From the NCBI GenBank assembly GCA_963969395.1, contig OZ017798.1:26032173-26096172 (forward strand): DNA of 64,000 nucleotides, given 5' to 3'. Every line of letters starts with the position of its first letter. Position 1 is the first letter of the stretch. Below the pieces are notes generated by a model that saw only the letters and a list, made by a program, of their open reading frames with translations, was not told where the DNA came from and did no database searches. Shown piece by piece: positions 2,681-55,373 of the stretch. Position numbers and translations under genes: made by a program. The DNA is from Pseudoscleropodium purum (lineage: Eukaryota; Streptophyta; Bryopsida; Hypnales; Brachytheciaceae).

Positions 2681-2689
2681 ACTTTTTTT

Positions 2690-3085: not shown

Positions 3086-3101
3086 CCCCCCCCCCCCCCC
3101 C
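3086..3101. repeat. poly-C tract (16 C)
   Basis: An uninterrupted run of 16 C stands out in an AT-rich background. A shorter C run is at about 22181-22189. Confidence 0.85.
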
Positions 3102-3109
3102 TTTTGGAA

Positions 3110-6610: not shown

Positions 6611-6620
6611 TTATTATATG

Positions 6621-11940: not shown

Positions 11941-11957
11941 AGTCAAATACAATACCA

Positions 11958-11963
11958 TATATA
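11958..11963 (+). promoter_or_regulatory. Candidate TATA box of the MYND gene
   Basis: TATATA in the context ccatatatacgg lies exactly where base composition changes from AT-rich intergenic to GC-elevated transcribed-looking sequence. It would place transcription start near 11990. Position and composition are the only support. Confidence 0.4.
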
Positions 11964-11989
11964 CGGTTCCCCACAACCCTTTCCGTACC

Positions 11990-13808: not shown

Positions 13809-14669
13809 ATGAAAGGGGCTCGTCGGTGCGGGCATGTGGAGCATGCCTTCGAGGACACTGGAGAAGACGACAGTGACGTACACGATCGTTTCGCAGGCGT
13901 CAAAGCTGCACTACTAGCGCACCGTGAGAAGCTAATAGCTGCTGCGAAAGCGGGAAAGTCTCTGGATAGTGACACCAGAACCGGTGCCCAGTACAATTTC
14001 ACGGCTTATGATGGTGATCAAGACTCAGCTGCAGCGCTGTCTGCGTTGTCCGTGAAAGCTTGTGCACATTGCAATAGTGGCGGGAAATTGATGATCTGTA
14101 CAGGATGCAGGAATACATATTACTGCTCTCGGGAGCATCAGAGTGCTGATTGGCGCAATGGCCACAAAGAGACTTGCAAGACGGGAGGCTCCCGACCTCC
14201 GACAACAGCTCCGTCACCTCCTCCCAGAGAGATATTAGAGCCGGGAGAGAGGCCCCTCAGCATAGAGATGCTTGAATTGGCTGAGTTGTTCAAGTCAGTT
14301 CATAAGGACATGCCAGAAGAAAACAAAGAGGGTGCGCTTCGGAAGGTTATTCATGTGTGCGAGTTAATTATAAAGCGAGGCAATCCGGACAATATTCCTA
14401 TCCCTCAAGTATTCTACATGCTTCAGGAGGCCCGACAAATGATTCGCCCCTTTGTAGCTGAGAGAGAAGGTAGAGAAGCTAGAGAAGCTAGCTTAGGCCA
14501 AATTGAGCCTCAGTCCGAGCCTGAGGTGAAGCTGAAGCCTAAGGTTGAGTCCAAGCCGAAGGCCGAGTCGACATCGCGTGTCGAGACAAGTGCCAAGCAA
14601 CAGTCTGGAAAGCATACCACATCATCGAAAAAGAAGTCTGGCAAGAAGGGAAGACGACGAGTGCCATGA
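13809..14669 (+). CDS. MYND-type zinc-finger protein
   Basis: An uninterrupted frame of 286 residues encodes a MYND zinc finger at residues 85-123. The ligands are in order C85, C88, C97, C100, C106, H110, H119 and C123, with the hallmark YC-x3-H-Q-x3-W segment. The sixth ligand is His where many MYND fingers have Cys, a variant I believe occurs in plants. MYND fingers bind two zinc ions and usually mediate protein-protein contacts. The N-terminus is acidic and alanine-rich; the C-terminal ~50 residues are Lys/Ser-rich and basic, with a KKKSGKKGRRR tail that could act in nuclear targeting. The frame also opens from a GTG at 13788, but ATG 13809 is preferred because the frame upstream hits a stop at 13776-13778. 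The partner and pathway are unknown. It is the only clearly intact host gene in the window. Confidence 0.85.
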   Translation: MKGARRCGHVEHAFEDTGEDDSDVHDRFAGVKAALLAHREKLIAAAKAGKSLDSDTRTGAQYNFTAYDGDQDSAAALSALSVKACAHCNSGGKLMICTGCRNTYYCSREHQSADWRNGHKETCKTGGSRPPTTAPSPPPREILEPGERPLSIEMLELAELFKSVHKDMPEENKEGALRKVIHVCELIIKRGNPDNIPIPQVFYMLQEARQMIRPFVAEREGREAREASLGQIEPQSEPEVKLKPKVESKPKAESTSRVETSAKQQSGKHTTSSKKKSGKKGRRRVP

Positions 14670-15300: not shown

Positions 15301-16240
15301 TCTATGCAGAAAAGATGAGCAGTGATTAATTATGGTGCAGTTATGGCATGGTTACCGGTGTAGTTGTGGCACATTGGCACATTGTGATTGGCTACAAGAC
15401 TCAATATTGCAATCAACTTTTGGTGGATTTTGCAACCAGCCCTTAGTTGGAAAAATGAAGGTCTATTTCACCAAAATGGGAGAAAGCCCATCTTCTGCTC
15501 AAAAATTCATGCTAATTTTGTTTTGTAAAAAAAAATCAAGAAAAATTATGGAAACCTCCCACTATCTATCTCTACACATGGGAAAATTTATCCATTGAAG
15601 AAATCCACCTTCAAGATATGTGAAATTCTTGAAGTGGTCAAAAATGGGTTGTTGATGTTAGCAATGCACTAGAAACAAGAGTTGCTAGTATAATGTTCAA
15701 TATTGGATATTTAAACCCTAAAAGTACAGGCATCTAAAATGGGGATTTGCCTTAGTCGACCTTATTATAACTTTCATATATATAGTTTTAAATTAAGAAA
15801 ATGGAATTGACCAAGTTTTGGTTCTATTCTATTTTAAATTTTTGAAAAAAATTAAAAAATTGAAACAATTATAGCAATTGCAAGGGCTAAGTATTGGAAT
15901 CCAAATTACACAATATTGTGTATAATTCTTTTGAATTCTCTTTGATAATTTAAAAAATTTCAAATAAAAAACTTATATTTTTCATTCTAACCTTCATTTA
16001 TAATAAAAATTCTAAATTATTCTAATATATTCTAATTGAGATGGTTTTCTTTCCACCTCTTAATTTAAAATATTACAATTATTTGACTTTTTCATCAAAA
16101 TTTGTGAAAAAATCAACATTGATAGAAAATACGTCTTCTTATAAGTGAAAACATGTCAAGGTTTTATACATCAATTATATAATAGAATAAATTTAAGTTA
16201 ACAGTTAACCCCTAAATGTTTTGACTATGCTTTCACTTAA
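15300..16240. other. Gene-free AT-rich stretch
   Basis: Repeat-like sequence without a recognisable element end or coding motif. Confidence 0.5.
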
Positions 16241-17570
16241 ATTCTCCAAAACTACCATTTCTAATACAAGTACCAAATTTTAGAGAAAAAAATTTTTTTT
16301 GGATACATGTAGGATCTTGTAGTAAATTGTCTCAAGAAGATGTGGAAAAAATTCAGAATTTTCCACCGTGTAGATTGCAAGATATTAGTGTTTGAATGGA
16401 CAAAGTTCATTTTTTGGACTTGTGAAAAACTGGGCAGCTACTATTCTTAAGGTCATATTTGTATGAAAAAATGTTCAAAATGGTGGTTACTCTTTGGATT
16501 CATTCTTCAAGGCAAGTTGGCTACATGCTTAAAATTTTTCAGACCATTTGGACTTGTACAATATATAGGGAAAAAATAGTAAGTAGAAAAAAATAGAGAA
16601 TGATTCAAAACATTAAATTGTTAAGAATTTAATCACGAAACTAAAAAATGCCAATCCAATGGTTGTAATATTGTAATAAACAATCTACACCCAATGTTAT
16701 TATTTTTTTCAAAAATATTGAAACTTGAGGTAACCCCTAAATGTCGAAGTTTTGTTTTAAGTTTCTTAGAATTTACTCTATATTGAACAAAATGTCATCA
16801 TTTTAATAAGCTGTATGAATTTTTTTGAATTGTAACTATACAAATTCAAACTAGACATGTTAGAGATCTCATAGGAAAAGAAAACACAACAATATGACCT
16901 ATGGAGAGAAAGATTATAATGTTTGACCATGAGGGTGTTAAAATTGCAAAAGTGATATGAAGTCTTTTGATCCTCTTTTTACAAGTCAAATCTAAAAAGT
17001 TGGTGACCAAAGAAATATATGGTTAAAGGACCCAACATATATAAATCCAATCAATTTATGGCTTTTTAAAATCTATTGTATAATATTTTTAAATGAATTT
17101 TAAATGTGATTTTTTCTCCAAGATTTGGTGTATTTGAGGCTCATTTCCAAGAGCTCTGAACACTACAGGAAGTCAAGATTGCAATGGGTATCTTTCACAA
17201 AATATTGAATAGAAAAATCATCATTATTTATTTTCAAAATCAAATTTTTGATGCTAAAACTAGACTTCAAGAAAAACTTTCCAAAAATATAAATTTCTAA
17301 AAATAGCAACTGAATTAGATTTTATTTAACTTCAAAGTTTTGCAAACACTAGATTTTGGTGCCACGGGCATTTAGGGGTTAAACAAAGGACTTCAAATTT
17401 TATTTTAGAATAGAGATTCCATAACTACTTATAAATTAAAAAACCTCATAACATTCATCTCATTAATCAAAATGGAATAATTCAAATCTTTTCGCAAAGA
17501 AGTAAATCTAGAGAATCAATTTCAAATTTTTATTTAAAAAAAAAAAATTTTAAGAATTTTTTGAGCTATT
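16240..17570 (+). repeat. Dispersed repeat family F, forward copy
   Basis: Carries the full family core: accatttctaatacaagtac, then taggatcttgtagtaaa, gatgtggaaaaa, tagattgcaagatatta and ggcaagttggctacat. It is the inverted counterpart of 7740-8600, with about 680 additional bases between 16700 and 17380. No coding frame is seen. Confidence 0.65.
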
Positions 17571-17778: not shown

Positions 17779-18009
17779 CAGGGTTGACAGGTCGGTCGGA
17801 CGTCCGGACGCAGATGCTGTGTCCGCAACGTCCACTGACATTCACAGACGTCGTCCGCCCGTCCACCCGTCTGCCCGTCCTGTCCGCCCCGTCCGCCCCC
17901 ATCCGCCTTTCGACGGCGGGAGGGACGCTGCGTCCGCTGGCGTCCGTGCGTCCGGACGTCCGGGTTACGGACGCTATTTTGGGGCGGACGTAGAGATTCG
18001 TCAACCCTG
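17779..18009 (+). mobile_element. GC-rich hAT MITE copy 1
   Basis: A 231-bp GC-rich block in AT-rich DNA begins CAGGGTTGAC and ends GTCAACCCTG. Identical 8-bp repeats AGTGTACC flank it (17771-17778 and 18010-18017). Eight-base target duplication with CAGGG termini is the hAT signature. Its right end matches the right end of the 10.2-kb hAT element (ctattttggggcggacgt). Its Arg/Pro-rich frames are by-products of CGTCCG repeats, not genes. Confidence 0.93.
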
Positions 18010-18160: not shown

Positions 18161-18890
18161 GTTGATCATTGTTTATATAGTAACATGGATCCTTTGGGGG
18201 CTTATGGAAGGGTATCAATAATTTTCTCTTGATGCATTGTTATTGGACTTGTTTAGATTTTAGAAAGAAAAATTTGTTGATAAGACTTATTTTTATATTT
18301 AATAATCTTTGTCATAGTGAATTTTATTTTAGTTGATTATTGTCTTGTAGGCTCGTAGCATCATGGATCTTCTCAAGGGCCATAGGAGGGTATCAACACT
18401 TCTTTCTTGATTTACAAATTAGTAGACTTGTTTAGATTTTTAAAAAGAGAATTCATTGATAGGAATTCATTATATGTAGAAAGAACTTAGTGACACCAAA
18501 TTTCATTTTTGTTGATCACTATCTTATAGTAGTTTGGATCTTCTTTGGACTAATGAAGGATATCTCTATTTTTGTCTTGAAGTGTTGATAATCAAACTTG
18601 TTAAGATTCTGGAAGAAAACATTTGGTTGATAGGAATTATTTTTGTAAGGAATGAGCTTAGTTACACCAAATTGTGGATTAGTTGATCATTCATTTGTCC
18701 TCTTGTAGGTTCTCTTGAAGGTCCAACCCTTCTATCTTTGAATAATCACTCCCCTGTTGCTTGGGAACTCTTGGTGCCAAGAGGTGGATTGAACACTTGC
18801 CATGTTGATGTGCTATTTATCGAACTTTGCTAAATTTTAAGAAAAAAATTGATTATTATTTAGGATTCATTTGAAATTGACTGGGGTTGT
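18161..18890 (+). repeat. ~175-bp tandem repeat, about four units
   Basis: The word gttgatcatt or a variant starts at 18161, 18332, 18511 and 18682, giving spacings of 171, 179 and 171. Each unit continues with ggatc-ttct/cct, then an atcaa-tttctcttga-like word, cttgttagatt and attgataggaatt-like words. The units are well diverged from one another. Confidence 0.7.
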
Positions 18891-19210
18891 TCCATTGAGA
18901 TTATGATCAATCTCTTCTTGTATTTGGTCTCCCCATGGCACCAAGGGAAGCTCCTAGCTATAGAAACACCTCCTCCCAAAAAAACCTTTTTAAAAAGAAT
19001 TTAAATTTATTCTCTTCACAACTAGTGAGCTCTCCTTGACTCCGAAAAGAATCCAACTGTAAGACAAGAATGGTTATAAAAATTAAAATCTCAATGGAAC
19101 AACCTCAATAAATTTTAAACAAATCCTAATTAATTACCAATTTTTTTCCTTAAAATCTAGCAAAGTCAAATAAGTAGCACATCACTATTGTTCAAGGAAC
19201 CATGGTAATA
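18790..19210. repeat. Inverted repeat around a ~150-bp spacer
   Basis: The sequence at about 18790-18920 (gatgtgctatttatcgaact, then tgctaaattttaagaaaaaa, then gttgttccattgagatt) recurs in reverse complement at about 19070-19210. The two arms can fold into a long imperfect stem. The left arm overlaps the last tandem unit. Confidence 0.65.
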
Positions 19211-19301: not shown

Positions 19302-19628
19302 CAGATTTGACGAATCTCTACGTCCGCCCCAAAATAGCGTCTGGACGTCCGGACGCCCGAATGCCAGCGGACACAGCTTCCCTCCCGCCGTCGGAAGGTG
19401 GACGGGGCGGACGGGCGGGGGTGGACAAGGTGGGGCTGGGCGGATGGGGCGGATAGGACAGGGCGGGGCGGGGTGGACGGGGCGGACAAGCGGACGGACG
19501 GGGCGGACAGGCGAACGGACGGGCGGACGGGCGGGTGGGACGGACGGGGTGGACGGCGTCTGCGAATGTCAACGGACGCTGCGGACACAGCGTTTGCATC
19601 CGGACGTCCGACCGTCCTGTCAACCTTG
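19302..19628 (-). mobile_element. GC-rich hAT MITE copy 2 (reversed)
   Basis: A 327-bp GC-rich block with termini CAGATTTGAC and GTCAACCTTG, slightly mutated from the family consensus. The flanking 8-mers are tactcaaa (19294-19301) and tgctcaaa (19629-19636), one mismatch apart. The end carrying cgtccgccccaaaatagcg is on the left, so it lies in reverse orientation. The middle is tandem ggcggacgggg-type sequence. Confidence 0.88.
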
Positions 19629-22900: not shown

Positions 22901-25670
22901 AATGTCCAAGTATCTTCAATCAAAAGTAGATAGACTTTTGGAAACTAAAGACTTGTATTTACATGGCATTATAGAACCATTAAAAAAAAAACATGGTTTC
23001 CAAGTAAAATTTATATTTTCTTTCAAACATTAATAAAGTCTAAAGTTTACTAAATTTATTCCTATACTAACACTAGCATTTATGAGTTCTATTTGTACAT
23101 TACCATCTAAAAAAAATCATAAGAGGGGATTTTAGGGCAACAAAAGCCCATTTCTAGTTTGTTTCCTTTGTTGTTTCCCTCATAGCAAAGGAACAACTAG
23201 CTATTAGAAAAAAAATTCAAAATAAATAAATAATTTGATTAATTAATTCCTAAAATGAAAAAAAAGTTGAAATTTTTTTTTTTTTTTAGATCTGATGTGA
23301 CTCTCTCCACCACGTTAGACTGCATTTTTGGCAACATTCCCTACATTTTCAGGGCTGGAGACCCCACAATCTTGTATTGTCTTCAAATCTCAAGTAATGT
23401 AACCATCATGTTGCTAATTGATAGAAATAGATTCAATCCCCAAATATTCTAATTATTAGCTATGAACTAAATCTTAAATATTTACACTATATATGGAACC
23501 TCAATTGTATGCATTGACCCTTAAAGTCCCAACATCCCAAAGTCCTTACAAAGACTCTTGGAATTTAGGATAGGCTCGTGTGACCTCAATTCTTGAAATG
23601 ATTTCCTGAAACTTTTTTTAAAGGTAGAAAATCACATCAACTTTTTAGAAAAATAATGTTTATTTCAATAGTTTCCTAGCTAGGAACAAAAGTTATACCA
23701 CTCAAAGTTCATAATATAGTTTGAGGGGCAACACCAAAAAATTCACAAAAAATTGAATTTTTTTAATTTTTAATTTTTTTTCTCAAAGATCGTATTTTTG
23801 TTTACATGTGAAGCTTTGATTCATTTTATTTAGTCTATTATAAATTAAAAAAGTGACGGGCAATCTTGTTTTTTTGGTTCTTCTTGAAAAAATAACTTAT
23901 AGAATTCATTTTGAAAAATTGTTAGATAGGATTGAGTTTGCTTGGTAGAACAATCACACTATTGGGATTATTGTATTTCAATTCTATTTTAGAGATATTA
24001 AAGATTTAGTTTTTTGTTCAATCTTGGACCTAATTCTACTTAAGAGTTTTTTAACAAGTAATGACTAAGTATTTTTTCTAGAAATTTTTTTCCTAGACTT
24101 TTGACTTAATTCTTCAATATAAAAAACTCAAAATTCAAAATCAGTAGTACAAAAAATTTAAGTTAAGAAGATTCAAAGGCAAAAACTCCAATGAAGCCAG
24201 GTAATAAAAACCTTAATTTCTTCTTTGTAAATGCAAATATCTTTCAAAACTACACAATCAAAGTTTTTGAAATTTCTTCCAAACATTTTTTTATAATAGT
24301 CTAATGCAAGATCCTATAGTTAGATATGGAAAAATAAAAATTTAAAATTTTTTTACTCATTGAAATAGAAATGGTAGTTTCGAGTGTTTTTTGATGAAAA
24401 TAAGGCCTTTAGACTTTAGAGGTTAAGCCACCACTAAAAATGAATAAGATTTACCTCACATTCAAATAATATTTGCAAAAGAATATAAGAAGATTAATGA
24501 TAGAATAATTTCTTCATAAAAAAGATAAATTTTTATAGAAGAAATAAAAATTCAAAGATCCTTGACTCTTTGAAGGAGTAGCATATTTTTGCAAAAAGGT
24601 TACATGATACAATCCAATCCTTTCTCTTGCTCTTTTTGTACATGCCTTCAAATTTCTTCTTAAACTTCTTATTATATGTTTCTCTTTTTTGGATTGAGCT
24701 TTTATTGGAATATCTTTGTCTTTTTCTTTCTCCTCAAAGAAATCATAGAACTTGGTTAAGGTTTAAGGTGGAAACATAGTTTGCTTAAACTGAGCTTTAA
24801 ACCAAACTTGTACTAACTTGTCATTAGTTGGAGATGAATAAATATTCACGGGATCAAAACATTCTTAGATAAGAACAAGAGTAATTGAAATATTAAGGTG
24901 AAGCTTAAATACTAAATAAAGTGAGATTTTTTTTGAGAGAACATTTGAAGGATGTTGTATCAATATATGCAATAATGCATTACCTTCTTTATGGGGTTTT
25001 GCCAAAGAAATTGTATTGTCTAAAAAAAATTGGAATTGTTGTTCGAAAAGAATATTACAGATGATCTTAAAGGATATATTTACAATCAAAAGAACCAATC
25101 TAAATGAGGAATTTACTAAATAAATTTGAAGGCCAACTTTAACATTATTGTACTTTCAAGTCATTTATCAATTTTAATAGTTTTTTCCTATAGATTTAAA
25201 TATTCATGAATCATCTTCTGTAGGTATTCTCTACTTTAGTACTTTTGATATTTTAAAGAAACATTTTGACATGTTAAGTGGACATGGGGATTATACTTTT
25301 AAATTTTTAATATATTTTTTTATAGAAAAAAATACTTTTTTATACAAAATTAATATAGAGTGTACATCTTACATCATTGAAGGACTTAGTAATATCCATT
25401 TTGAAAGAATGTAAAAATAATATTGTACATCTAAAATAAAAATGTATCTTAAGATGAACTTTATCTTTATAAGAAATAAAATTTAGAGATTACATTTTGT
25501 AAAGAAGATATTTATTTTAATATATTAGAGGTCTAAAGTTTAATAAAATCTTATTTTTAATACATTTTAAATCATTATAGCTTAGTCTTCAAAAAAATAT
25601 TTTGACTCTACTGCATTCTAGTACTAAAACAAATACAAACGCCACATAAATCAATGTAAAAAATTGAGCT
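22900..25670. other. AT-rich stretch without genes
   Basis: Apart from the family F fragment at 24160-24430, I see no element ends or coding motifs here. Confidence 0.5.
24160..24430 (-). repeat. Dispersed repeat family F, inverted copy
   Basis: On the minus strand it reads aaactaccatttctatt, then tataggatcttgcattaga, matching the other family F copies. It is diverged and shorter than the 16-kb copy. Confidence 0.55.
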
Positions 25671-25899: not shown

Positions 25900-27400
25900 T
25901 TTTTTTTTCAAAATAAAATTTTCATACAATCTAGCGTTCGTTGTGTTGTAGGGGGAATTGCGGGGGCTAGGTGCTTGAAACGGCCCTGTGGAACCTAGAA
26001 AATCCTCTAATGACTCCTTGATTTTGAGGAGCCTTCTTTGAGTTCTAAGAAAACTTGTTTGAGAAAGCCCTTTGGCACTAAAAGAAAGACTCCTCGGAAT
26101 TGAGGAGCCTTCTTTGAGTTCCAAGGAGCCTTCCTTGAAGAGCCTTTTGGCACCAAGGAAGGGTTCCTTGATTTCAAGGAGCCTTTCTTGAGTTCTAAGA
26201 AGACTTGTTTGAAAGAGTCTTTTGGCACTAAGGAAAGGCTCCTCGGAATCGAGGAGCCTTGTTTGAGTTTTGAGGAGCCTTCTTTAAAAAGGCCTTTGGC
26301 ACCAAAAAGGGCTCCTTGATTTCGAAGAGCCTTTTTTGAGTTCTTAAAAAAACTTGTTTAGGAAAGCTTTTTAGTACCAATAGGCTCCTAGGAATCGGAG
26401 GAGCCTTTTGGGGATTCAACAGAGCCTTCATCTGGTTCAAATGAACGCTCTTTGGGTTCAAAGGAGTCTTTTATTAGGTTTAAAAGGAGTTTTTAAGTTC
26501 AATGGAGTATTTTTAGGTTCAATAGAACTTTTTTTGAAAAGCCCTTTGGCACCAAGAAAGAGCTCCTTGATTTCAAGGAGCCTTCTTTGGTTCTTAAGAC
26601 AACTTATTTGGGAGAGCCCTTTGACAAGAAACACGGGCTCTTCCAAACTTGAAGAGCTTTCATTGGGTTCAAAGGAGCCTTCCTTGAAGGATCCTCTAGC
26701 ACCTAGAAAGGGCTCTTTGATTTCACGGCACCTAGAAAGGGTTCTAAGACGACTTGTTTGGAAGAAGTCTTTGGCACTAAGAAAAGGCTTCTTAACTTCA
26801 AGGAGCCTTTCTTGGGTTTTGAAGAGACTTGTTTGGAAGAGGTCTTTGGCATCAAAGAAATGCTTTTCAAAATCCAAGGAGCGTTCCTTAGGTTCAAAAG
26901 AGCTTTCTTTGGAGAGTCTTTTGGTACCAAAAAAGGGCTCCTTGAATTCAAGGAGCCATCTTTGGGTTAGAAAGATCCTTTGTTGAAGAGCCTTTTAGCA
27001 CTAAGGAAGGGTTCCTTAGAATCCAAAGAGCCCTCTTTGAGTTCAAAAGAACCTTCTTGAGTAGAGCTATTTAGCACGAAGAAAGGGCTCCTTGGATTGA
27101 AAGAAGCCCTTTGGCACTAACAAAGGTTCCTAAGATTTGGGGAGCTTGGCTAGGGAGAGTCCATTGATATTAAAAATGGAATTATAAGAAAAGCCTTTTA
27201 TGGCATGAAGAGTCTAAGTAATTATGACGCATAAAAAGAATTAAGGAAAAATCTCTTTGTATTTAGAAGTAAATCTTGGGATCCAAGGAGCCTTCTAATG
27301 TCATACCAAAAAAATTAAGAAAAAGCCCTTTTGGCACCAATTGAAAGAAAGCCTTCCTAAGGCTCTGAAGAGTCTTTCCTTAGCTTTGAAGATCCTCACA
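25900..27400. repeat. Degenerate tandem array of hairpin-forming GGAGCC units
   Basis: A unit of about 55-80 bp is repeated a dozen or more times. Typical content is ccctttggcaccaagaaagg, then a palindrome of the form GGCTCCTTGA-TT-TCAAGGAGCC, then ttctttgagttctaag. A perfect 22-bp palindrome with half-site GGCTCCTTGAA is at 26936-26957. The array decays towards 27.99 kb, where single ctttggcaccaaaaaa words recur just before the hAT element. The overlapping frames on both strands are repeat by-products. Confidence 0.8.
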
Positions 27401-28010: not shown

Positions 28011-28018
28011 GTGGTAGT
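28011..28018. other. Left target-site duplication of the 10.2-kb hAT element
   Basis: GTGGTAGT immediately precedes the CAGGGTTGAC terminus. It is identical to the 8-mer right after the element at 38239-38246. Confidence 0.93.
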
Positions 28019-28256
28019 CAGGGTTGACACGATGTCCCCAGGTCCGGGACGTCCGGACGCGGACGTTGTGTCAGTAGCGTCCGCTGACATTCGCGGTCTC
28101 CGCGGACGCAACGTCCGCCGGGACCGCCCCGTCTACCTATCACCTCGTCCGCCCCGTTCGCCCCATCCGTCCCACCTGTCCGCCCTGTCCGTCCGCCCCG
28201 TCCGCTTTGACGGCCCTATTTCCCCCGACCGCCCTACCCAAACTGCCCCGCGGTTA
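28019..28256 (+). repeat. Left GC-rich subterminal region of the hAT element
   Basis: The first ~240 bp are built from CGTCCG/CCGCCC words. It shares the block ggacgtccggacgcggacg followed by gcgtccgctgacattcgc with the left ends of the MITEs at 33324 and 48261. In hAT elements, subterminal repeats are transposase-binding sites, so these repeats may be such sites; that role is inferred. Confidence 0.7.
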
Positions 28257-28651
28257 CTTCCTTAATCTTTAAACAATTAAATGTTAAATGAAGTGCAATG
28301 ATTCGCAATTTGTCATTAAAACAATGTCTCTTATAAGTTGAAAGATTATAAAGTTTGACCATGAGTCCATGATAGTCTTGAAACTATGAAAAAATTCCAA
28401 TTCATTTTTAGAAGGCAAACTAAAAAAGTTTATGACTTCAAATATATATATACACTATTTAAAAAATCGAGATCAACACAAATACAAACATAATTAATAT
28501 GGACAAAATATATTGAATTTAATATAGAATACCATATATTGTGCACATTTGGCTAATTGCACATATAATTTTTTTCATTCCAACTCTATATTTCTAAACT
28601 AATTTTTAATGCCTATATAACCTATTCAATTACTACTTCTGCACTACCAAT

Positions 28652-30141
28652 CTAATATAAATGGCGGAAATGTTCATCTGGCATCGGCCAACGATATGTA
28701 TTAGAAAATCGCGTAATCACATGGGCCAAACTAGTATTTTCATCGTCAGTCTTCGAAGAATGCGCTTCAAGTAAGCATAAAACACTTTTGCAAAGTCATG
28801 AAAGGCAAATTGTGTCGCACTAGGTGTTTAAGTAGTAAGTTGAAATACGCCTCTGACATGTTGTTTCCATTCATCTGCCGAGCAATTTTTCGAATGGCAT
28901 ACTCTTCCGACTTACGTGAATACATCGGAATGACTTCCACATCTGCACCTACTTTATGCAAATATGTAATACGTGGATCCACCCACCATCTCCTCTACAA
29001 AGTGTTTCATCTCATCTGCTGATGTGAATGTGTACAAAGACTTCATTGGCTGAGAAGCTAAGGTGGTCATGCCCCAATCGCAAACTCCAATGTACACACG
29101 TGACTCATCCTCTGGAAAATGCAACAAGATGTTGTCCGGAGAAAGATCATTGTGCAAATGTCCAGCAAGATGCACTGCATACATTATATGCATAAAGGCC
29201 CATGTCAGCTCCGTGCGCTTTTTCCAATATCGTCCTAAATGGTGAGCTTTTAAAACCTCCTCTTCGGTTGGATTCGTATACATCAAACGGATTTGAATGT
29301 TGTTTGGAAAGTCCTTATCCATATTCAACATTTGTCGAAGAATTCCACCATTCCACCAATACGCATAACCTTCACACGTCATTCCATGCACCGCAGCAAA
29401 CCGTATCACACTCACGTGTGGAATTCGAACAGCCATTGATTCGTTTTGATGTTCTAACTTTGCAAGATCAGGTCGAGTTTGGTGGTGAATGGATTTCTTC
29501 GCCGCAAACTTCCAATGAGGAAGTATTCCTGGACATCCTTCAATACGGACCTTTCGAATCGTTGCATATCCACCTTTCATCGTTCTATCATCAACAGCAA
29601 TCACGCGTGCTGTATCTGGAAGTGCTATGAGGTGCCGTTTGTTCCTTTCCGCTTCAGCAACTCCATCATTGCTTTTCCACCAATCAATTGAACCAACTCG
29701 ATTGTGTTTTTTGGCGAATGGAACACATCGCCCCCTAAATAAGTCCGCTTTCATAATCACTTCTTCAAATTGGGCGTCATTGGGTCGATATTCCTTGCCA
29801 TATTTAACCAAAATGACTTTGGAATTCCACAAAGCGTCATGAACCTTGTTCTCCAAACATTTGGTGAAGTGCACTTTATCCATCTCGTCATGCTACTTCG
29901 GAACATTCAATGCATCCAACAACATCTAGGTCATGTCTACCTTGAATTTAGACACGCACTCCTCTTGATATCTGGTGTACTTATTGTCTAAAGACAATGT
30001 TGTTTCCGATTCATAAAATTGAATGATGTGCTCAATCATGAATTTTTTGTATTCCTCTAAAGGACTTTGGCGAGCTACCTCCAAGTTTGATGGTCCCTCT
30101 CCATGTTTAAGCTTCGCAACCTTCTTCTTCCCCTTCGTCAT
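28652..30141 (-). pseudogene. Protein kinase-like gene carried by the hAT element (broken)
   Basis: Read leftward from ATG 30141, one intronless frame of roughly 495 codons encodes a protein kinase-like protein. In the longest intact piece (ATG 29883, 309 residues) I see a glycine-loop-like GGYATIRKVRIEG (104-116), FAAKK with the likely beta-3 Lys K129, a candidate alpha-C Glu (E144 or E148), the catalytic loop HNDLSPDN (244-251) and DWG (269-271) in place of DFG. The N-terminal ~70 residues are basic and lie before two in-frame TAG stops (29926-29928 and 29893-29895). Frameshifts near 28980 and 28770 precede the last segments, which end at TAG 28652-28654. Catalytic residues are kept, so the ancestral protein was probably an active kinase; substrates are unknown. 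It may be element cargo or a captured host gene, and I cannot tell which family it belongs to. Confidence 0.75.
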
Positions 30142-30329
30142 CGTGACAAATGAAATTGATATAGATCAAATTTTTTAATTTGAAATTGAATTCACGCGCA
30201 AGTGTCCAAAAAATTGGCAACAAGGAGGCCCCAATAAACCACTCTTGCCTTGCCTCGGAAAGGAGCCAATGGAGGATGAACCACCAAGCTCTCCGCTCCA
30301 CCTTGCATTTACAAGGGGCAAAGCAAAAG

Positions 30330-30775
30330 TGACAATGCGGACGGCCCGTCCGCCCCCATCGGACGGCCCTAAACCATCCGCCCGATCGGACGGGCCGGGG
30401 GTGGCGGACGGATCGGCCGTCCGCCTCCCCGAAACCCTAGAACCCTATCCATCCGATCGGACAGCCATAGGCGGACAAATCTAGCGTCCGCCCGATCGGA
30501 CGGTCCGGAGGGGTGGACGCATCGGTCGTAACGGGGCGGACAGGGCGGACGCCAGATCGGACGGACAGGGTGGACGGAAGACGGGGCGGATGGGGCGGAC
30601 AAGGCGGACGCCGGATCGGACGGACAAGGTGGACGGAGGACAGGGCGGACGGGTATCGGAGCGGACGGGGGTCTGGGCGGACGGGGCGGACAGGTATCGG
30701 AGCAGACGGGGTCTGGGCGGATGGGGCGGACGGGTATGAGGGCGGACGGGTACGAGGGCAGACGGGGCAGTTTGA
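30330..30775. repeat. Internal GC-rich array of GGCGGACGGG units
   Basis: About 450 bp of CpG-rich sequence, dominated by ggcggacggg, ggatcggacgg and gtatcggagcgg words. It begins about 190 bp upstream of the kinase-like gene's start codon. It resembles the element's ends but has no terminal CAGGGTTGAC here. It could be a promoter-proximal CpG island or a remnant of another element end. Confidence 0.65.
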
Positions 30776-30807
30776 CCCTAAAGTGACCCTAAACCCATAT
30801 TTTGCAC

Positions 30808-30816
30808 GATAAATAG
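30808..30816 (+). promoter_or_regulatory. TATA-like motif beside the GC array
   Basis: GATAAATAG follows the GC-rich array in plus orientation, with accctaaaccc just upstream. The same arrangement (GC block, accctaaa, TATA box) precedes the transposase gene at 34.1 kb. No coding frame follows here, so if it was a promoter its gene is gone or displaced. Confidence 0.3.
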
Positions 30817-30879
30817 AGGTCTTCATGGCACTGTATAGTTCAACTAATTTTTCATTCATTCAATGTAAAATTTGAAATT

Positions 30880-33315
30880 AAAAAAGGTTGCCTTCTTTTA
30901 TGACCAAATTTATGAATTCTTGGTAAATGATATTTTTGTACAAAGATATGAGCTAAAATGTGCTAAAATTCACGAAAGGATTGCGACGTTTAATATAAGT
31001 ACCCAAATATTCACGTTGCATTGTGTATAAAGCAATTGTAAGAAGGTAGTTGAATAAAAATTCTACTATTAAATTGAATTAGTTGACGTCTAATCACTTA
31101 GTAAATCGCTAAATCGCTAAATGTCCAAGTCTTTGCAAGTGTGTTTTGGCTATCGAAAAAGAGCATGGACTTATAGTTATCTCTAATGAAGCAAATTGTT
31201 CTTTTTTCAAAATCTAACGGTATAGATGTTTAATCCCTAAAGTTCTTTTCACTAAAAACACTTCAAAACTGCCATTAGTAGTGCAAATACCAAGTCTTGG
31301 AAGAAAAATACTTTTGGGCATATGTAACCATAGGATCTTGTAGTAAATTAGTTGGAAAAGATGTGGAAAAATTTTTAGACAAATCCACCATTTGGATTGT
31401 AAGATATTAGATATTGAATGTTTTATTTAAGGGGGCTATTCAATTATGTCTATTAATGAACAATTGATAGGCTAACAAACCTAACTTAGCATGTATTTTA
31501 ATATTTGTTGCAATTGTTTTAGGAATATTATAACATAATACTATTATAATATTCTTATAAATGATATAGTACTAAATCATTTCAAAATCAACAACATTCG
31601 AACACAATCTGTCAATCTTGTCTTCCATACTCCTTTAATGATATATATATATATAAATATATATACATATATAAAATATATTAGATAAATCAACATGAAC
31701 AAATCAATGATTATATATTTCATAGATCTATTCTTCATCAATCAAATAAGAGTGCATGTTCAAATATAGACAAAGATGGTTTCTCCATTTATTCCCAAAA
31801 ATTAAATAAACAAATAGAGAAAGATATGAAGTGAATGTTACTTGGAGAATTGAAGGGAAAGAAATTGAAGTACTCAATTGCATTTTATTAAATTGGAAAA
31901 TTGCATGTGGATGGCATGAATTAATCTTCATAGATGCTAAACTCATACGAGTTGCATTTCAACATTTATGATTTATGCAATTAATTGAATTGAAAGCTTT
32001 CGTAATTACATTTTCAAATTTTCGATTCAATCATTCAAATTTGCAAGAGTGATTTATGATAGATTTATAACTTTAAATGTGAAAGCATTCAATGCCTTTA
32101 CACGTTTGTTCATCAATATATTAATTTTAAATAAATAATATATATTTTTTATAACATATGCATAAACCATTGCATTAAAAAAAACAAAAACTAAGAGCCA
32201 AACCAAATAGGCTGGTCAAATGAAGAGAACAAGAGAATAAGAGCCCTACGAAAAAGCAAAGGAAAAAAAAGAAAATATCAAAAGGATTCAAAGAAAGGAG
32301 CAAGATGCATTCTTGCAAGACCGTAGAATATATAATGATTTCAAAATCCAAACACAAATATATTTTCTATTTCAATGAGAGTCAAAAATGAACTACCCTG
32401 CTCTCAAAGATTGTACAATGTACACGCTATACAAAATGAACATATAACAGAAAGAGTAGAAGACATCATTTATCATGATTGAAAACTAAAATGATTTTTT
32501 CTTTCTATGTAGAATATTTTATGAAATGTAACAATGTATTTAATTATCATAGTAATTGGTAGAAATCTTTATGCAATACATAGAAATATTTCATTTATGT
32601 GGAGTTTTTCATTTATTTAGGATTAAAATTGAAGTATTATACTCTACAAAGTACAAACCGAAAACAATATCATATACCTAAGTTCAAAAGTTTGCAATTG
32701 TTTCGTGAATTCATTTTGAAAACTCAAACGAAGAAATATTTTATAATCAATATCTTGTTCATTTGAATCATTTCAAAAATCGAATTCCGAATTCAATTCC
32801 TATTTATAATAGAAATTATGTTTGTCAATTTTTTAGATCTTTAAACAATGAACCCTCTTTTTTAAAATTAATATTTAAAAACATCTGAAATAAGAATATT
32901 GGAATTACCCTTCAAAATAAATATAGCACATGTATAAGTGTATAATGTATTCTACTCAACCAACTCAAGTAACGAATTTTTCTATGTTTTTAAGGAAAAA
33001 TATAGCCATATATGATTTGAAAGTTAAAACATTGATTCTTTTTCTTTGTTTTCAAATCTAATCAAAATTGCATTAAAAAATATGAAAGACTCGATGTTCA
33101 TTTCAAGATCGTGATGCACTTCTAATTAGAAAACACAACCTTCCATTAAATATCATGAGGTTGAAATCCATTAAACTGTTATTCTAATTATGTATTGGGG
33201 CCTTTTTTTTAAATTTCATTTGCTTACGATGAAAAAGGAATTGATTATTTCTGCAAAACATTTGATTTCCTAATGAACTTTAAAAAAATCATCACCATCA
33301 TTAGATCTTCTCAAA
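30880..33315. other. AT-rich filler inside the hAT element
   Basis: This 2.4-kb interval has no coding motif. It includes a family F fragment at 31230-31430 (aggatcttgtagtaaatt, gatgtggaaaaa, ggattgtaagatatta). Part or all of it is probably a later insertion into the hAT element, but I could not find its ends. Confidence 0.45.
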
Positions 33316-33323
33316 ACCTATTT

Positions 33324-33637
33324 TAGGGTTGACAGGACGTCCGGACGCGGACGCTGTGTCCGCAGCGTCCGCTGACATTCGCATCCCGGCGGACGCAGCA
33401 TCCGCCTGTCCCCCGTCCGCCTGTCCGCCTGATTACGGCCGTCCAATCGACGCGCGGACTGATCTGGTCCGCACGATCTGGGCGTCCGCCTCGGGCCATC
33501 CGCCCTGTCCGTCCGCCTCGCCCTGCCCGTCCGCTTTCCGACGGTGGTCGGGACGCTGCGTCCGCTAGCGTCCATGCGTCCGGACGTCCGGAAAATGGAC
33601 GCTATTTTGGGACGAACGTTGACATTCGTCAACTCTG
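33324..33637 (+). mobile_element. GC-rich hAT MITE copy 3, nested in the parent element
   Basis: A 314-bp GC-rich block with termini TAGGGTTGAC and GTCAACTCTG. The flanking 8-mers are acctattt (33316-33323) and atctattt (33638-33645), one mismatch apart. Both ends match the corresponding ends of the surrounding 10.2-kb element. The independent target duplication shows it is a separate insertion, not part of the parent's structure. Confidence 0.88.
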
Positions 33638-33734
33638 ATCTATTTAGAAGGATAATATGAGTAAATAATCCAAACATATTCAACTTAACCACATTCCTCG
33701 CATTCGTAAAACAATTTAGGGGAGAAAAGAAAAG

Positions 33735-33782
33735 GTTTAGGGTAATTAGGGTATAGAGTAATTAGGGTATAGGGTTTAGAAT
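33735..33782 (+). repeat. Short TTAGGG-like repeat
   Basis: About three diverged copies of an aattagggtatag word. It resembles telomere sequence only loosely. Confidence 0.4.
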
Positions 33783-33944
33783 TTACATTTTTTTTAAAAT
33801 AAAATGATAAATCAATTACATTGATCCTCATTTAGCAGTGATTATTAGGCGGGTTTTTTTTGGAAATGTTACCGCTCTTTTTGAGTAGTATCGGCCTCAT
33901 AGGATGCTCTAATGGACAGCTGGGCGAACGTCGTCAACGGTCAG

Positions 33945-34092
33945 TGTTTAAGTGGGGCGGTCAGCGTGTCCAAAGCGTAGACGGTGTCGGAAGGTGGACA
34001 GTGTGGATAGTCCCGTCCGACCGCCCGTCTGACCCGTCTGGCGTATCCGCCTGCCCTGTCCGCCCGTCTGCTTCAGCCCCGTCCGGGCCGTT
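33945..34092. repeat. GC-rich block upstream of the transposase gene
   Basis: CpG-rich sequence with gtccgcc and cgcccgtctg words like those at the element ends. It lies directly upstream of a TATA box, so it may have been part of the transposase promoter. Confidence 0.5.
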
Positions 34093-34146
34093 GCTTGTTT
34101 TTGAATGTAAACCCTAAAAATGAACCTTTAATTTTCTGGAGAGGAC

Positions 34147-34152
34147 TATAAA
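34147..34152 (+). promoter_or_regulatory. TATA box of the hAT transposase gene
   Basis: TATAAA in the context gaggactataaatg lies about 250 bp before the first candidate ATG (34399) and just after a GC-rich block. It would place the start of transcription near 34180. Confidence 0.5.
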
Positions 34153-34398
34153 TGTTAGAAGATAAGCTTTTGTATTCACTCTCGAAAAACCGAACGCTAA
34201 GATTTCCAAGGGCTATGAGCTTCAATTTATTGAGTCTCTTGCTTGGTAATGCATAGTTCGGTGGACGGGGGCTTTGATTTCCAAAGCTTTGTGTGACTAA
34301 TTTCATTGATATTGTATACATTGTCACGTTGTGGGTTTCAAATTTAAAATATTTTATTGGTTTCTTTTGAAATTGAGGTAAAACATACACTTGTCAAT

Positions 34399-36783
34399 AT
34401 GGTGGCCAAACCGACGGGGGATTTTTTTCCTTGATTTAGTGTGCAAGAGGGTGGTAAAGTAAAATGTAGGCTTTGCAAAGCGATCATGTCAAAGAAGCTC
34501 AGCCGTATGTTCAGCCACTTAAGCTATTCTGGGCCTGGAGGTGTACGTGATAAAGGGGTGAGCCTTTGTCTACAATTATCAATGGTAGTTCGAGATTTAT
34601 TTCGGCATTGCGAAGGAGTTTTTCCAAAACGTGTTGTAATGGACAATGTGGATGGCAACCCTGGCCCTTCAGATGTCCAAGAGTTTTCGGCCGGAAAGGC
34701 TGTGTCACATTTTGACCACGAAGACTCTTGTCCAGTGTCCAAAGAATTGGTATCAATGGTATGTACCACAACTGAAATGACTTTGAATACAGAAGCTTCT
34801 CATGAACGTGAAACCCCGAGGGCATCCAGTTCTAGGCCTCAGAGGCAAGGCAGCTTAGTGAATGGGTTTGAAGAAGGTTATAAACGCAAATTACATTCAG
34901 TGTGGGCAAATTTTTTTTATTCGGCGAACATACCATTTTCCGTGGCTTGAAATCCAGCTTTTAAAGAAGCAGTGAAGAAAACGGCTGCGTTCGGTAGACC
35001 ATACATTCCTCCCTCATACCACGACCTTCGGTACAAATTGTTGAATGAGGCGAAGACCAACATTCAGACACAGTTGAATGCACGAACCGAAGATAGCATT
35101 CGAAAATTTGGAGCAACATTGTCCATTGATGGCTGGAGCTCAGTGACTAATTGACCTCTCATCAATGCCATGCTTGTATCATCCACAGGTGAAGAATTTC
35201 TTGGATCTGTAGATACAAGTGGTTGTGAAAAAAATGCGGAGTACTTGGCAACTGTGTTGGAAAAGTTCATTGAACAAGTGGGGTCCAAGAACGTCGTGTT
35301 AATAACTACGGATAATGCTCCCGTGAATCCGTCCGCATAGGATGTAATATCTGCAAAATATCCTCATATTTTTTACCAAGGGTGCATGGTACATACATTG
35401 AATTTATTGTTGAAGGATTGGGCTGCACAGAAATGGATTGCTTCCAAGTTGGATAAAGGAGTTCTTGTAGCTAAATTTATCAGGAAGAGACATATGCCGC
35501 TAGCTCTATTGCGAAAGTACTCGCCAAATCTTAGTCTCTTGATGCCTGGGGATACAAGGTTCGCCTCTAAATTTATCATAATGGAGCGTTTGACAAAATT
35601 GAGAGGAGCATTGGAACAAACGGTGGTAGATCCGCAATGGGTTGAGTATGTACATACTCTCAAGAAGAAACGTGGAGCGAAACTCCAACCAAAAGACTTG
35701 GCCTTAGCGGTGAAGAAAATTGTTCTTGATGACCATTTTTGGAATCGGTCGATCAATTATGTGGAGATGGTTGAACCAATCATATGTGCACTCCGCGATT
35801 TGGATTCAAAATTACCATGCATGGGGAAGGTGTTGCATATCATGAGGAAGTTAGAGAAGCACGTGAACGGATTACAAAGTCCACCATTTTGTTTGCTAGA
35901 AGAACGTGCAATTCCATTGGTACAGTCTTTTTATGCCCGAAGAAGAATGGTAGACAATGATCTCCAATCAGCCGCAGCTCTTTTGAATCCATACCTTCTT
36001 TATGACAAAGAGCTAGCGGATGACGCAGATGCAATGTCAGGATGTAAGAAAGTTTTGGAGAGAATATGTAAACCGGATGAATATGCAGCAGTGGTGAAGG
36101 AATTTGTGGCTTTTCGACACAAGGAACCTCCATTCCACAATATGTTGAATCCGGGAGATCAAATGTTGTCTGCACATGCTTGGTGGGATTTTGAAGGTGC
36201 ATGTGGCAAGTTTATAGCTCCATTAACGAAGAGGATATTGGCTCAACCGGTGTCATCATCTTCATGTGAACGGAATTGGAGCAATTATTCTTTTGTTCAC
36301 AACAAATCTCGAAATAAATTGAAGCCGAAGAGAGCAGCAGATTTGGTGTACGTGTATACCAATTCCAAAGTATTAAACGCATTGAAGAAAAAAGATGAAA
36401 AAAAATGGTATAATGATAATATAGATCCGATGGAATCAGAGGATTCAGATAGGCCGACGTTAGAAGACGATGATGACGAGGATTTGGAAAGGGCCCTTTC
36501 AGGTGTAGATGGCGGGGATGACTTCAATCGTGTGACAGCATGGGGAGATAAAGACGTTATGGAAGGCTTTCCCGATTTGGTGAATGATACGCATGATTAT
36601 CATTTAAATCGCAAGGATGTCGTTCCCGACAATGCAAACGATGCATATGCCTTTTGTGAAGACGAGGACAATGTAGGGGTACAGGTGAATCTACCTTCTT
36701 TAACTGCATATTGCAATGGAATGGGATTTTTGAATAGCAAAAACATTCTATCGGAAAAGGCAACGCTATTGTCAAAGAGGTGA
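34399..36783 (+). pseudogene. hAT transposase (BED finger, RNase H-like core, hAT dimerisation domain), broken
   Basis: One reading frame runs from ATG 34399 to 36783 and is interrupted only by stops at 34432, 34948, 35152 and 35338. In order it encodes a BED-type finger (VKCRLCK followed by H and C ligands, about 34460-34565), the first catalytic Asp in LSIDGWSS (about 35121-35144), the second in TTDNAPVN (about 35308-35331), and the C-terminal hAT dimerisation region with WWDFEGACG and SSSSCERNWS, which holds the catalytic Glu. hAT transposases cut and paste elements with 8-bp target duplications, which this element shows. Two of the stops are TGA codons where family members commonly have Arg, as expected from CGA-to-TGA deamination. 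This copy cannot make a full transposase, but a related enzyme probably mobilised the MITEs. Confidence 0.9.
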
Positions 36784-37763
36784 AAATCAATGAGAATGCT
36801 ATTGGTGATGATGGGAAAAATGAAGAAGTTCTAATTTCTCAATCTCCATCTGTGGCATTAAATGTAGTGCAAGGAAACGACAAAAGAGAAGATGCGGTCA
36901 TGGAGGTGGATGTTCCAAAAGATGTGGGCAACAATAGTGGTGATGAAGGGGAACCAAATATTGCGGTATAGAAAAATAGTGATTCACTTGGGATGGCAAT
37001 CACAAATTTGACAATTGTGAAGAGTGATAAAGGAAAAGAGCCAATAAAGTCAATTTTTGAAGTACCGAGATCTAGTGCTCTTTCACCAATACCGTTGAAG
37101 TTTGTTAGCACACGATTGGTCAGATTGGATGATTCTTAGAGCTTTGGATATGGAAAACGCCTAGTGAACATTTCCAAAAAAATTTCTACAAGCGGTAATC
37201 TACGGAAAGTAGCGTCATCACCTACAAGCCTAAGTGATACAGATAGTGATTGGATGCCATTGGCATCTTTGCGTGATCGTATTTTAGGAAAAGGAATGGC
37301 GCAAGAACCCATCAAGTCAACAAACGGCACTCTATTACTTCAAAAGAAAGCCAAAGTGGAGATAACCGTTCATGGACATGTCGACCCTACATCGAGATTG
37401 ATGGTTCAAGAATTGAGTAAGGTGAAAGCGAAAAGAGAAATGCAACCTTTTGCTATCTCTCCAATGAAGAATAGGACCCCTCTTGATGAAAATGTTGCTA
37501 CTTTGTCAAATAGAAAGAAAAGAAAGGTTCCTATTCAAAAAGCCTTTAATCGTTTTGTCAAAGTAAAAAAAGAAAAATTAAATTCGAAAGAAGGAAGTAA
37601 ACCTATTTCGAGAGAAGACTTGAAGGAGACAACGATACTTGATTCCAACAATGAAGATGACTCTGACAATGAAGATGACTCCGATAATGAAGATTTTGAA
37701 TGGAGAGCTGCAGGAGAGAATAGTGGGGCTGAGGTTAAAGGAGATGTAGATTGGCGTCCATAG
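36750..37763 (+). pseudogene. C-terminal extension or second frame downstream of the hAT transposase
   Basis: After the transposase frame closes at 36783, a frame shifted by one base continues with no gap (reading NAIVKEVKINENAIG) for about 325 codons to TAG at 37761-37763. TAG stops interrupt it at 36969-36971 and 37137-37139. The product is rich in Lys, Ser and acidic residues, with a DSDWMPLASLRDRI segment and an acidic repeat (DDSDNEDDSDNED) near the end. I recognise no domain. It most simply is a long C-terminal extension of the transposase separated by one frameshift, but it could have been a separate protein. Confidence 0.55.
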
Positions 37764-38098
37764 GAATTGTAGAGATGTGAATTTAGATGTTTGATTGTTT
37801 AGTTGCTCATGATATATGGAGCTCATGTTGACAAATGACAATGATTTCTCAATCATTTTATTATAAAATTGTTTGTTTATTGATGATATACATCTCGCTG
37901 AATTTTAAAGTGATTTTGTTTCTAAATCAAAATGAAATTCAACAAAAAAAATTAAAAATATATTTCATATTTTAGCTTTTACATAAATAGTGATATACAA
38001 CTCTATTGAATCACAATTGCAATATAAGAAAAATCAAAATCAAAATGACTTCACTCTCAATCTCTCATTGGTGAAAACAATCAAAACAAAAAACCCAA

Positions 38099-38238
38099 AA
38101 CGGGTTTTCTAAGCCGCCTGGCCCCGCGCGTCCGCCTTCCGACGGCGGGAGGGACGTTGCGTCCGCTAGCGTCCGTGCGTCTGGACATCCGGAAAACGGA
38201 CGCTATTTTGGGGCGGACGTAGAGATTCGTCAACCCTG
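38099..38238 (+). repeat. Right GC-rich subterminal region of the hAT element
   Basis: The last 140 bp are GC-rich and end cgctattttggggcggacgt, then agagattcgtcaaccctg. The same end is found on all five MITEs in the window, with small changes. Confidence 0.85.
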
Positions 38239-38246
38239 GTGGTAGT
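38239..38246. other. Right target-site duplication of the 10.2-kb hAT element
   Basis: GTGGTAGT follows the terminal GTCAACCCTG. It is identical to the 8-mer at 28011-28018. Confidence 0.93.
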
Positions 38247-48260: not shown

Positions 48261-48568
48261 CAGGGTTGACAGGACGTCTGGACGTCTGGGACGTCCGGAC
48301 GCGGACGCTGTGTCCGCAGCGTCCGCTGACATTCGCGTCCTGGTTGACGCAGCGTCCGCCTGTCCCCCGTTCGCCTGTCCGCCCGTCCGCCCGATTACGG
48401 CCGTTCGATCGACGCGCGGACTGATCTGGTCCGCACGATCTAGGTGTCCGCCTCGGGCCGTCCACCCCGCCCCACCCGTTCGCTTTCCGACGGCGGTTGG
48501 GACGCTGCGTCCGGACGTCCGAAAAACGGACGCTATTTTGGGGCGGACGTTCAAATTCGTCAACCCTG
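48261..48568 (+). mobile_element. GC-rich hAT MITE copy 4, inside copia
   Basis: A 308-bp GC-rich block, CAGGGTTGAC to GTCAACCCTG, flanked by identical TTTACAAC 8-mers (48253-48260 and 48569-48576). Its left ~90 bp closely match the left end of the 10.2-kb hAT element and its right end the right end. It inserted between protease and integrase. Confidence 0.94.
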
Positions 48569-54498: not shown

Positions 54499-54937
54499 TG
54501 TTAGATGAAATTAGTCATACCTAGTTAGCTTAGCATTATAGATTTAGAGTATATTGAACAATCGCACTTTAAGAGTAACATGAAGTCATACCTATTCAAA
54601 TTCCATTCAAACCTTCTTCTTATCACTACTAAAAAAACTATGCCCAAATTAACAAAACATCAACAATTTCTTGTTTATTTGGATAATGTAATGTCCATTT
54701 TCACAAGTTTTTGTTAATTGTGCCTAAATTAACAAAATAGTTTCATTTTTTTGTTGATTTGGACAATGCAATTGTCACATAAACAAAAATTTGTTAATTT
54801 TTTTAGAATCTTTTAGATTCTTTTGAAAAATTTAAAATCTTTAAGGATCTTTAAGAATCTTTGAAAATCTTTGGGAATCTTCAATATACAATGTTTTAAG
54901 AATAAAATAACTACACAATTTGGTGTCTATTAAAATC

Positions 54938-55280
54938 AGCGGACTTTAGGGGCAATTTTCACATCTTAAATGGTCTTTTTTTTTTAAACTTTGAACTAAC
55001 AAAAGTTGTAAAATTGAGCTATCTTTTACTTCCAACAAATAGTTTGAGATTTAGATCTTCCAATCAAAAGTTATAGACAAAAATTAGAGAGGGGTGAAAA
55101 TGGACATTTCTTTTTACATTTTAAAACACCTTTTCTGATTTTTGTCCATAACTATTAAAAAATTGAAATCTCAAATGGATTGTTGTAAATGAAAGATAGT
55201 TCAATTTTGCAACTTTTATTGATTCAAAGTTTAAAAAAAAAAATTTGTTTACAAAATGAAAATTGCCTCAGAAGTCTGTT
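54938..55280. repeat. Large inverted repeat inside the CACTA element
   Basis: The left arm (about 54938-55100) and right arm (about 55120-55280) are complementary around a centre near 55110. For example, cagcggactttaggggcaat pairs with attgcctcagaagtctgttg, and aactaacaaaagttgtaaaa pairs with the ttttgcaacttttattgatt side. Confidence 0.7.
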
Positions 55281-55373
55281 GACTTGAAGTGATTGTAGGA
55301 AAAAAAAAAGTAAAAATAAATAAAAAAGTAAAAAAATAAATTTTTGCACCTCTTATGATCATGTGAAATTATA

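Follow-up and report, generated by a model that had tools for sequence, protein, structure and literature searches.

The element in the window

The window, by which we mean the whole stretch of 64,000 nucleotides that was analysed (C42:26032173-26096172 in the genome of Pseudoscleropodium purum, 313 Mb in 52 contigs), contains at 28019-38238 a transposable element of 10,220 bp. As the earlier note had described, the element has perfect 10-bp inverted ends, CAGGGTTGAC (28019-28028 on the + strand and 38229-38238 on the - strand), and is flanked on both sides by an identical 8-bp duplication, GTGGTAGT, with 8/8 bases in agreement. We take CAGGGTTGAC to be a short inverted end of the hAT type, going by the consensus for such ends, and the duplication has the 8 bp of a hAT target site. 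Within this one pair of ends a kinase-like gene on the - strand and a transposase gene on the + strand lie in divergent orientation. The features are as follows.

28011-28018, no strand: left target-site duplication GTGGTAGT, from the end-pair scan
28019-38238, no strand: whole hAT element (10,220 bp, with a nested 314-bp member); perfect ends, duplication 8/8
28019-28250, + strand: left terminal and subterminal GC-rich region with 12 CGGAC/GTCCG words
28655-30141, - strand: kinase-like gene, intronless, broken
30142-30790, - strand: kinase gene leader and GC-rich upstream block with 25 CGGAC/GTCCG words
30791-33323, no strand: AT-rich spacer belonging to the element; 95.6-96.9% identity in 4/4 copies over the stretch read
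33324-33637, no strand: nested short family member, duplication 7/8; absent from 4/4 other copies read
33901-34150, + strand: transposase gene upstream region, GC-rich, with a TATAAAT site
34399-37763, + strand: hAT transposase gene, broken
38114-38238, - strand: right terminal region
38239-38246, no strand: right target-site duplication GTGGTAGT, from the end-pair scan
17779-18009, no strand: short family member, duplication 8/8
19302-19628, no strand: short family member, duplication 7/8
48261-48568, no strand: short family member, duplication 8/8
53435-53748, no strand: short family member, duplication 8/8

With at most one mismatch, the end motif occurs 14 times in the window, against 1.7 expected. 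A scan of the window for end pairs (at most two mismatches, less than 15 kb apart, at least 6/8 duplication bases) gave seven pairs, namely the 10,220-bp element with its 8/8 duplication, five short relatives of 231-327 bp with 7/8 or 8/8 duplication bases, and a pair of poor quality at 1079-13908, which has 6/8 and is probably due to chance. Of the 145 CGGAC/GTCCG words in the window, 67 lie in the element (25 of them in front of the kinase gene), 65 in four other family members and 13 elsewhere. All nine GC blocks that peak at 0.65 or above are within family members, and the four blocks outside them peak at 0.55-0.57. The block before the kinase gene and that before the transposase gene also match each other, with the same orientation towards their respective genes (E 1e-5, in low-complexity sequence).

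The claim of a hAT transposase is borne out by a Pfam scan, in which the dimerisation region Dimer_Tnp_hAT is above its cut-off with E 3.5e-8, and by 76% identity to P0111. DUF659 and BED fall below the cut-off in the broken window copy, while DUF659 is far above it in the relatives P0111, P0112 and P0182, so that, counting the DUF659 of these relatives, the BED, DUF659 and dimerisation regions of a hAT transposase are all present. In the transposase gene there are six stops, and the frame changes once. The kinase gene, which runs without introns from 30141 down to 28655 and is colinear with the 499-aa protein P0001, is interrupted by two stops in frame and two frame changes. The window copy of the element, having both genes broken, is dead.

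Two forms of the family in the genome

In the genome as a whole we find at least 127 copies of the kinase (127 scored among 1,388 candidates), all at 88-92% identity except the window's own, and at least 89 copies of the transposase (89 scored of 1,013 candidates). We examined 29 further kinase copies with 1.5-kb flanks, and in 27 of these the family end lies 0.8-1.0 kb beyond the kinase, as in the window. On the far side 24 of them were followed, four being read over 7.0-7.5 kb and 20 by means of 2-kb stretches; these are the best-scoring copies, so that older or kinase-less copies may be under-sampled. Transposase DNA is present on the far side in 18 of the 24, and 13 of these 18 have both ends, 9.5-10.1 kb apart, with 7-8 of 8 duplication bases. 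The four copies read all contain the spacer, the transposase and the other end, are 92-97% identical to the window element, and are flanked by the duplications TTTGAGAG, GTTCTAGG, CCTCATAT and TTACTTAG, each 8/8 and all different, their lengths being 9,851, 9,739, 9,639 and 9,496 bp in that order. Among the 20 copies that were probed at the expected far end, 14 have transposase DNA at this point, from the 3' part of the gene in 13 and from the 5' part in one, nine of the 14 with duplications of 7-8/8 and two with 6/8, and the other six comprise L010, where we see the spacer only, and five copies of a second form described below (L012, L013, L019, L022 and L027).

The reverse direction gives the same picture. 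A divergent kinase lies within 15 kb of 23 of the 89 listed transposases, with 19 of the pairs 4.9-5.3 kb apart, whereas random placement gives a mean of 1.1 and a maximum of 6; three further kinases lie near listed transposases in another orientation. Since the lists hold only the best-scoring copies, we also turned to ten transposase copies for which the list gives no kinase partner; kinase DNA is in place in eight of them, and in two the stretch probed shows only the spacer. No copy with the transposase and both ends but without the kinase was seen, ten transposase copies having been probed from that side. Full-length copies lacking the kinase were what the earlier note had named as evidence against its reading. 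It had proposed to look for other copies with these ends and 8-bp duplications and to ask whether the kinase keeps its place beside the transposase, and such copies are what we find, their duplications being different and the two genes divergently oriented. The same two genes thus stand between the same ends in many copies. That the kinase was captured once, in the window copy alone, has next to no probability and is refuted, because the same organisation recurs in copy after copy with different duplications.

The second form, which we call form B to distinguish it from the transposase-bearing form A, accounts for five of the 24 followed kinase copies and keeps the ends, the kinase and the spacer of form A, with two other genes in the place of the transposase. 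In L012, L019, L022 and L027 an extra stretch of about 2-2.5 kb lies between the kinase upstream block, at window 30503, and the spacer, from window 31183 on, and in it gene X, with 377 open codons, has the same direction as the kinase. Gene Y follows past the spacer and the first part of the transposase upstream region (window 33640-34033, 85% identity); its 666-codon stretch contains a RING-like finger (E 1.6e-5, below the Pfam cut-off), and gene X is related to the start of gene Y (37% over about 105 residues, E 1e-20). In L013 the listed gene Y is 4.7 kb away. No transposase was found in form B elements within the stretches read. A complete copy of form B, L019/L064, measures 11,744 bp and has ACTCAAAC on both sides, identical. 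Gene Y itself is present in at least 67 copies (67 scored of 853 candidates) and forms 18 divergent pairs with the kinase, 12 of them at 6.4-6.9 kb, against a mean of 0.2 and a maximum of 2 by random placement; only one of the 127 listed kinases is paired with both transposase and gene Y. When four gene Y copies without a listed kinase were probed, gene X was found in 4/4 and the kinase in 3/4.

It might be asked whether the arrangement is a composite of two elements, one with the kinase and one with the transposase, which by nesting or fusion came to look like a single element because of the outer ends. Nested members do exist, as at 33324-33637 and in the form B copy L012, which ends inside a transposase-bearing copy, and in the window the kinase lies between the two arms of a 10-bp inverted pair that has a 5-bp repeat, at 28411/30895. 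The latter pair would give the kinase insertion boundaries of its own, which the earlier note had named as another refuting case. The pair is significant against mononucleotide shuffles but not against real-sequence controls, pairs of that type occurring also in 48 of 320 control placements, and we reject it. Moreover, the four copies read agree at 92-97% identity in spacer, both genes and ends, and a composite that had been amplified whole would today simply be the element. We consider this explanation very improbable. It is thus nearly certain that the family has two forms with a standing kinase. Form A runs, as seen in the copies read, from one end through the kinase (leftward), the AT-rich spacer and the transposase (rightward) to the other end, over about 9.5-10.1 kb; in form B, gene X lies behind the kinase upstream block and gene Y downstream of the transposase upstream region.

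The kinase and its conservation

That the gene opposite to the transposase on the - strand is kinase-like, as had been claimed, is supported by a protein search that returned 109 matches. They include a protein of the moss Ceratodon purpureus (52% identity) and one in a MAG labelled 'Bacilli bacterium' (76%), the latter probably a contamination. In the 51 of the 109 relatives that have at least 390 residues, to which our residue survey was confined, K, E, H-N-D and N are kept in 51/51, and the D-W-G motif keeps its Asp in 50/51 and its Gly in 47/51, so that the catalytic Lys, Glu, HxD, Asn and DxG of protein kinases are all found among these longer relatives. The position of the catalytic-loop lysine is occupied by Ser in 45, Thr in 5 and Leu in 1. 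The AlphaFold model of P0001 (pLDDT 81.7, pTM 0.63) predicts about 170 residues of helices followed by a kinase fold, and in the comparison of this model with the PDB kinases fill 50 of the 50 rows shown, which is consistent with a protein-kinase fold. The best viral fold match of the model has E 3.3e-7 and the best PDB match E 9.0e-8, values that come from different libraries and indicate a common fold only, so that they speak neither for nor against an origin of the kinase from giant viruses. In Pfam the window kinase scores below the cut-offs; among seven relatives scanned, P0075 passes PF00069, P0029, P0058 and P0075 pass PF07714, and four pass neither, while the precomputed Pfam annotation gives PF00069 for many of the 109 matches.

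The earlier note had called for a check for intact copies, and the kinase frame is indeed at least 480 aa long in 15 of the 29 own-genome copies, being shorter in the other 14. The median dN/dS of the kinase is 0.40 over 104 of 105 own-genome pairs (one was dropped for low dS), and for the transposase six pairs give values of 0.36-0.45. For 11 kinase copies of equal length (54 of 55 pairs) dN/dS is 0.45 in frame and 0.52 and 0.83 in the wrong frames, so that mutation bias accounts for part of the low value. Recent purifying selection on the kinase is thus likely, though dN/dS alone is not decisive; as far as sequence comparison can tell, the conservation among distant relatives is the stronger argument for selection.

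These data bear directly on the main alternative, in which the kinase rides along passively: an ancestor would have picked it up a single time, and it would since have been amplified between the ends with no effect on transposition. The shorter frames in 14 of 29 copies and the in-frame dN/dS, which is little below one of the two wrong-frame controls, would be expected of a passenger, and such a passenger has been published, as far as the available parts of the source go, in the histone H3 gene of a fungal hAT (PMC6710886). By contrast, the retention of the kinase in both forms of the element, the invariance of K, E, H-N-D and N in all 51 distant relatives, the element-type repeats upstream of the kinase gene and the long open frames in 15 of 29 copies argue against it. 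We regard the passenger explanation as a real possibility, of roughly one chance in three.

Proposed role of the kinase, known systems and relatives elsewhere

Based on these results we propose that the element in the window is a dead member of an abundant hAT family whose elements have the kinase as a standing second gene, and that this kinase has a helper role; we hold the statement as a whole to be moderately probable. That the kinase helps the element at all is the part that we favour with some reserve, and if it does so, help with transposition or with evasion of silencing is most likely. In the proposed mechanism both forms, and the short derivatives too, would be moved by the form A transposase. 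This transposase may bind to the blocks rich in CGGAC/GTCCG that lie at the ends and in front of the genes, by analogy with transposase-binding repeats in other hATs, and the blocks would in this way tie the expression of the genes to it. The kinase in turn, and of this step we are least sure, might phosphorylate either the transposase itself or some host factor in control of timing, repair or silencing. That transposase-less elements keep the kinase would fit an action on the host cell, or one on transposase molecules made by other copies. The wider proposal, that a non-RD (H-N-D) kinase is in a branch of plant hATs an element-encoded helper common to a transposase-bearing form and to a transposase-less form with further genes, one of them RING-like, seems to us evenly poised.

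DNA transposons with a transposase and a second standing gene are known in MuDR and PIF/Harbinger, which resemble the present family in this respect and differ in that they belong to other superfamilies and that their second gene is not a kinase. Ac/Ds of maize is 4.6 kb long and has the transposase alone, whereas the present family is about 10 kb and has the kinase in addition. The likeness to Ac/Ds consists of short inverted ends, subterminal repeats and short derivatives (on Ac/Ds see PMC3260210). In maize and rice, Pack-TYPE hAT elements lack a transposase and contain fragments of captured genes (PMC8903248, available parts); they share with our family the non-transposase coding sequence between hAT ends, and form B is non-autonomous in that sense, but form A has a transposase gene, with none found in form B in the stretches read. 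A close case is a hAT of about 9.5 kb in Pseudocercospora fijiensis, with DUF659, 8-bp duplications, an intronless histone H3 gene and many copies; the captured gene is a housekeeping one, and its copies are inactivated by RIP (PMC6710886, available parts). The P. fijiensis element agrees with ours in DUF659, in the duplications, in a length near 10 kb, in an intronless host-type gene beside the transposase and in copy number, and differs in that our family has a divergent kinase, whose frame is long in 15 of 29 copies, and includes a second form that lacks the transposase.

The suggestion that the organisation is unusual for a hAT therefore holds for the standing kinase between defined ends and not for the presence of a host-type gene as such, which is already published (PMC6710886). 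We found no hAT with a kinase gene in the open-licence PMC literature, among the matches listed from titles and the beginnings of abstracts. In so far as these partial sources allow, hAT cargo is already published (PMC6710886, PMC8903248) and the standing kinase in a hAT is new; the family goes further than the published cases in that it has an enzyme as a standing component and a second form lacking the transposase. We have here a high-copy DNA transposon of a eukaryote in which a kinase gene is a standing part, and whose sister elements keep the kinase while other genes replace the transposase. Regulation of transposition or of host silencing by a transposon-encoded kinase becomes directly testable, and, if our proposal is true, a DNA transposon family would possess its own signalling proteins, perhaps of ubiquitin type as well, controlling its mobility or the silencing by the host.

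The kinase also has points in common with the FunK1 kinases of fungi, a divergent multi-copy family in which serine replaces the catalytic-loop lysine (PMC3203195, available parts), the same replacement being seen here in 45 of 51. FunK1 is fungal, and in the available parts of that article it is not described as part of an element. At a threshold of E 10, four of five kinase relatives scanned have no match to the Pfam fungal kinase, and the fifth, P0075, reaches E 0.039 and 13.1 bits where 24.1 are needed. Note also that kinase genes found in many copies in genomes of this sort may belong to transposons.

Finally, we note the relatives outside this genome. The kinase P0027 and the transposase P0112 (57% each) are both on contigs of 27,639 bases, for which a crude jitter test gives a chance of 0.05 or 0.009, and a second genome thus probably has kinase and transposase together. 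For the other 24 of the 25 kinase matches on contigs of at least 5 kb, none of the 75 transposase matches listed is on a contig of equal size. P0012 and P0124, on contigs of 3215, are short and come from different sources and were dropped as evidence of linkage. Viral contigs searched with the kinase ORF, the transposase ORF and the alignments of both gave no relatives; one viral contig from a DNA pattern search (L002) has two weak protein matches (E 7e-4 and 0.007), which we take as chance. Genome contigs gave nothing with the kinase alignment, in a scan that may leave out the window's own genome; with the transposase alignment, where the own genome is perhaps likewise not covered, they gave one contig of a Halorubrum MAG (L001) with hAT fragments and, among the matches listed, no kinase. 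The deeper branching of the kinase and transposase trees disagrees, at weak forks. On long ENA contigs, in a comparison that leaves out two further transposases and four further kinases, six kinase clusters have mutual identities of 81.6-88.5% in 13 of 15 pairs (one pair has 55.7% and one no match), and nine transposase clusters have 85.7-91.8% over 36 pairs.

Genes X and Y of form B

In form B, the members of the family that have genes X and Y in place of the transposase of form A, the hAT ends enclose the kinase gene together with genes X and Y, which are located on the following stretches.

L058:3-1133, minus strand
L062:1059-1697, plus strand
L043:2-1999, plus strand

Gene X is related to the start of gene Y, and gene Y carries a RING-like finger. 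No transposase was seen in form B within the element stretches read.

Relatives under prokaryotic names

Two protein relatives come from records named 'Bacilli bacterium': P0002, close to the window's kinase (76%), and P0246, which is related more distantly, to the transposase (43% identity with P0113), with both probably representing plant contamination in MAGs. Contamination is also the probable origin of the eukaryotic hAT transposase fragments that adjoin a CA repeat on a Halorubrum MAG contig (L001:1-3590).

Paired copies in the own genome

Among the matches listed in the kinase, transposase and Y searches, copies of equal score in opposite orientation, 4-70 kb apart, recur pairwise, as in these examples.

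C45:21388287/21400739, transposase
C46:391635/405501, transposase
C1:12223226/12240504, transposase
C1:41126865/41147174, kinase

Either large segments have been duplicated in inverted orientation, or the pairs are an artefact of the assembly.

Other features of the window

26009-27114, array of diverged direct repeats (~1.1 kb, 66-82% alike), with open reading on both strands
54930-55288, 6621-6839 and 18806-19184, imperfect palindromes (68-78%)
31237-31432, 16231-16398, 8436-8602 and 24211-24412, AT-rich repeat
13779-14669, plus strand, open stretch of 296 aa

The palindromes could represent further elements, of a foldback or MITE-like kind. One of the four places of the AT-rich repeat falls in the spacer of the element at 28019-38238. 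The cysteine pattern of the open stretch resembles that of a MYND finger.
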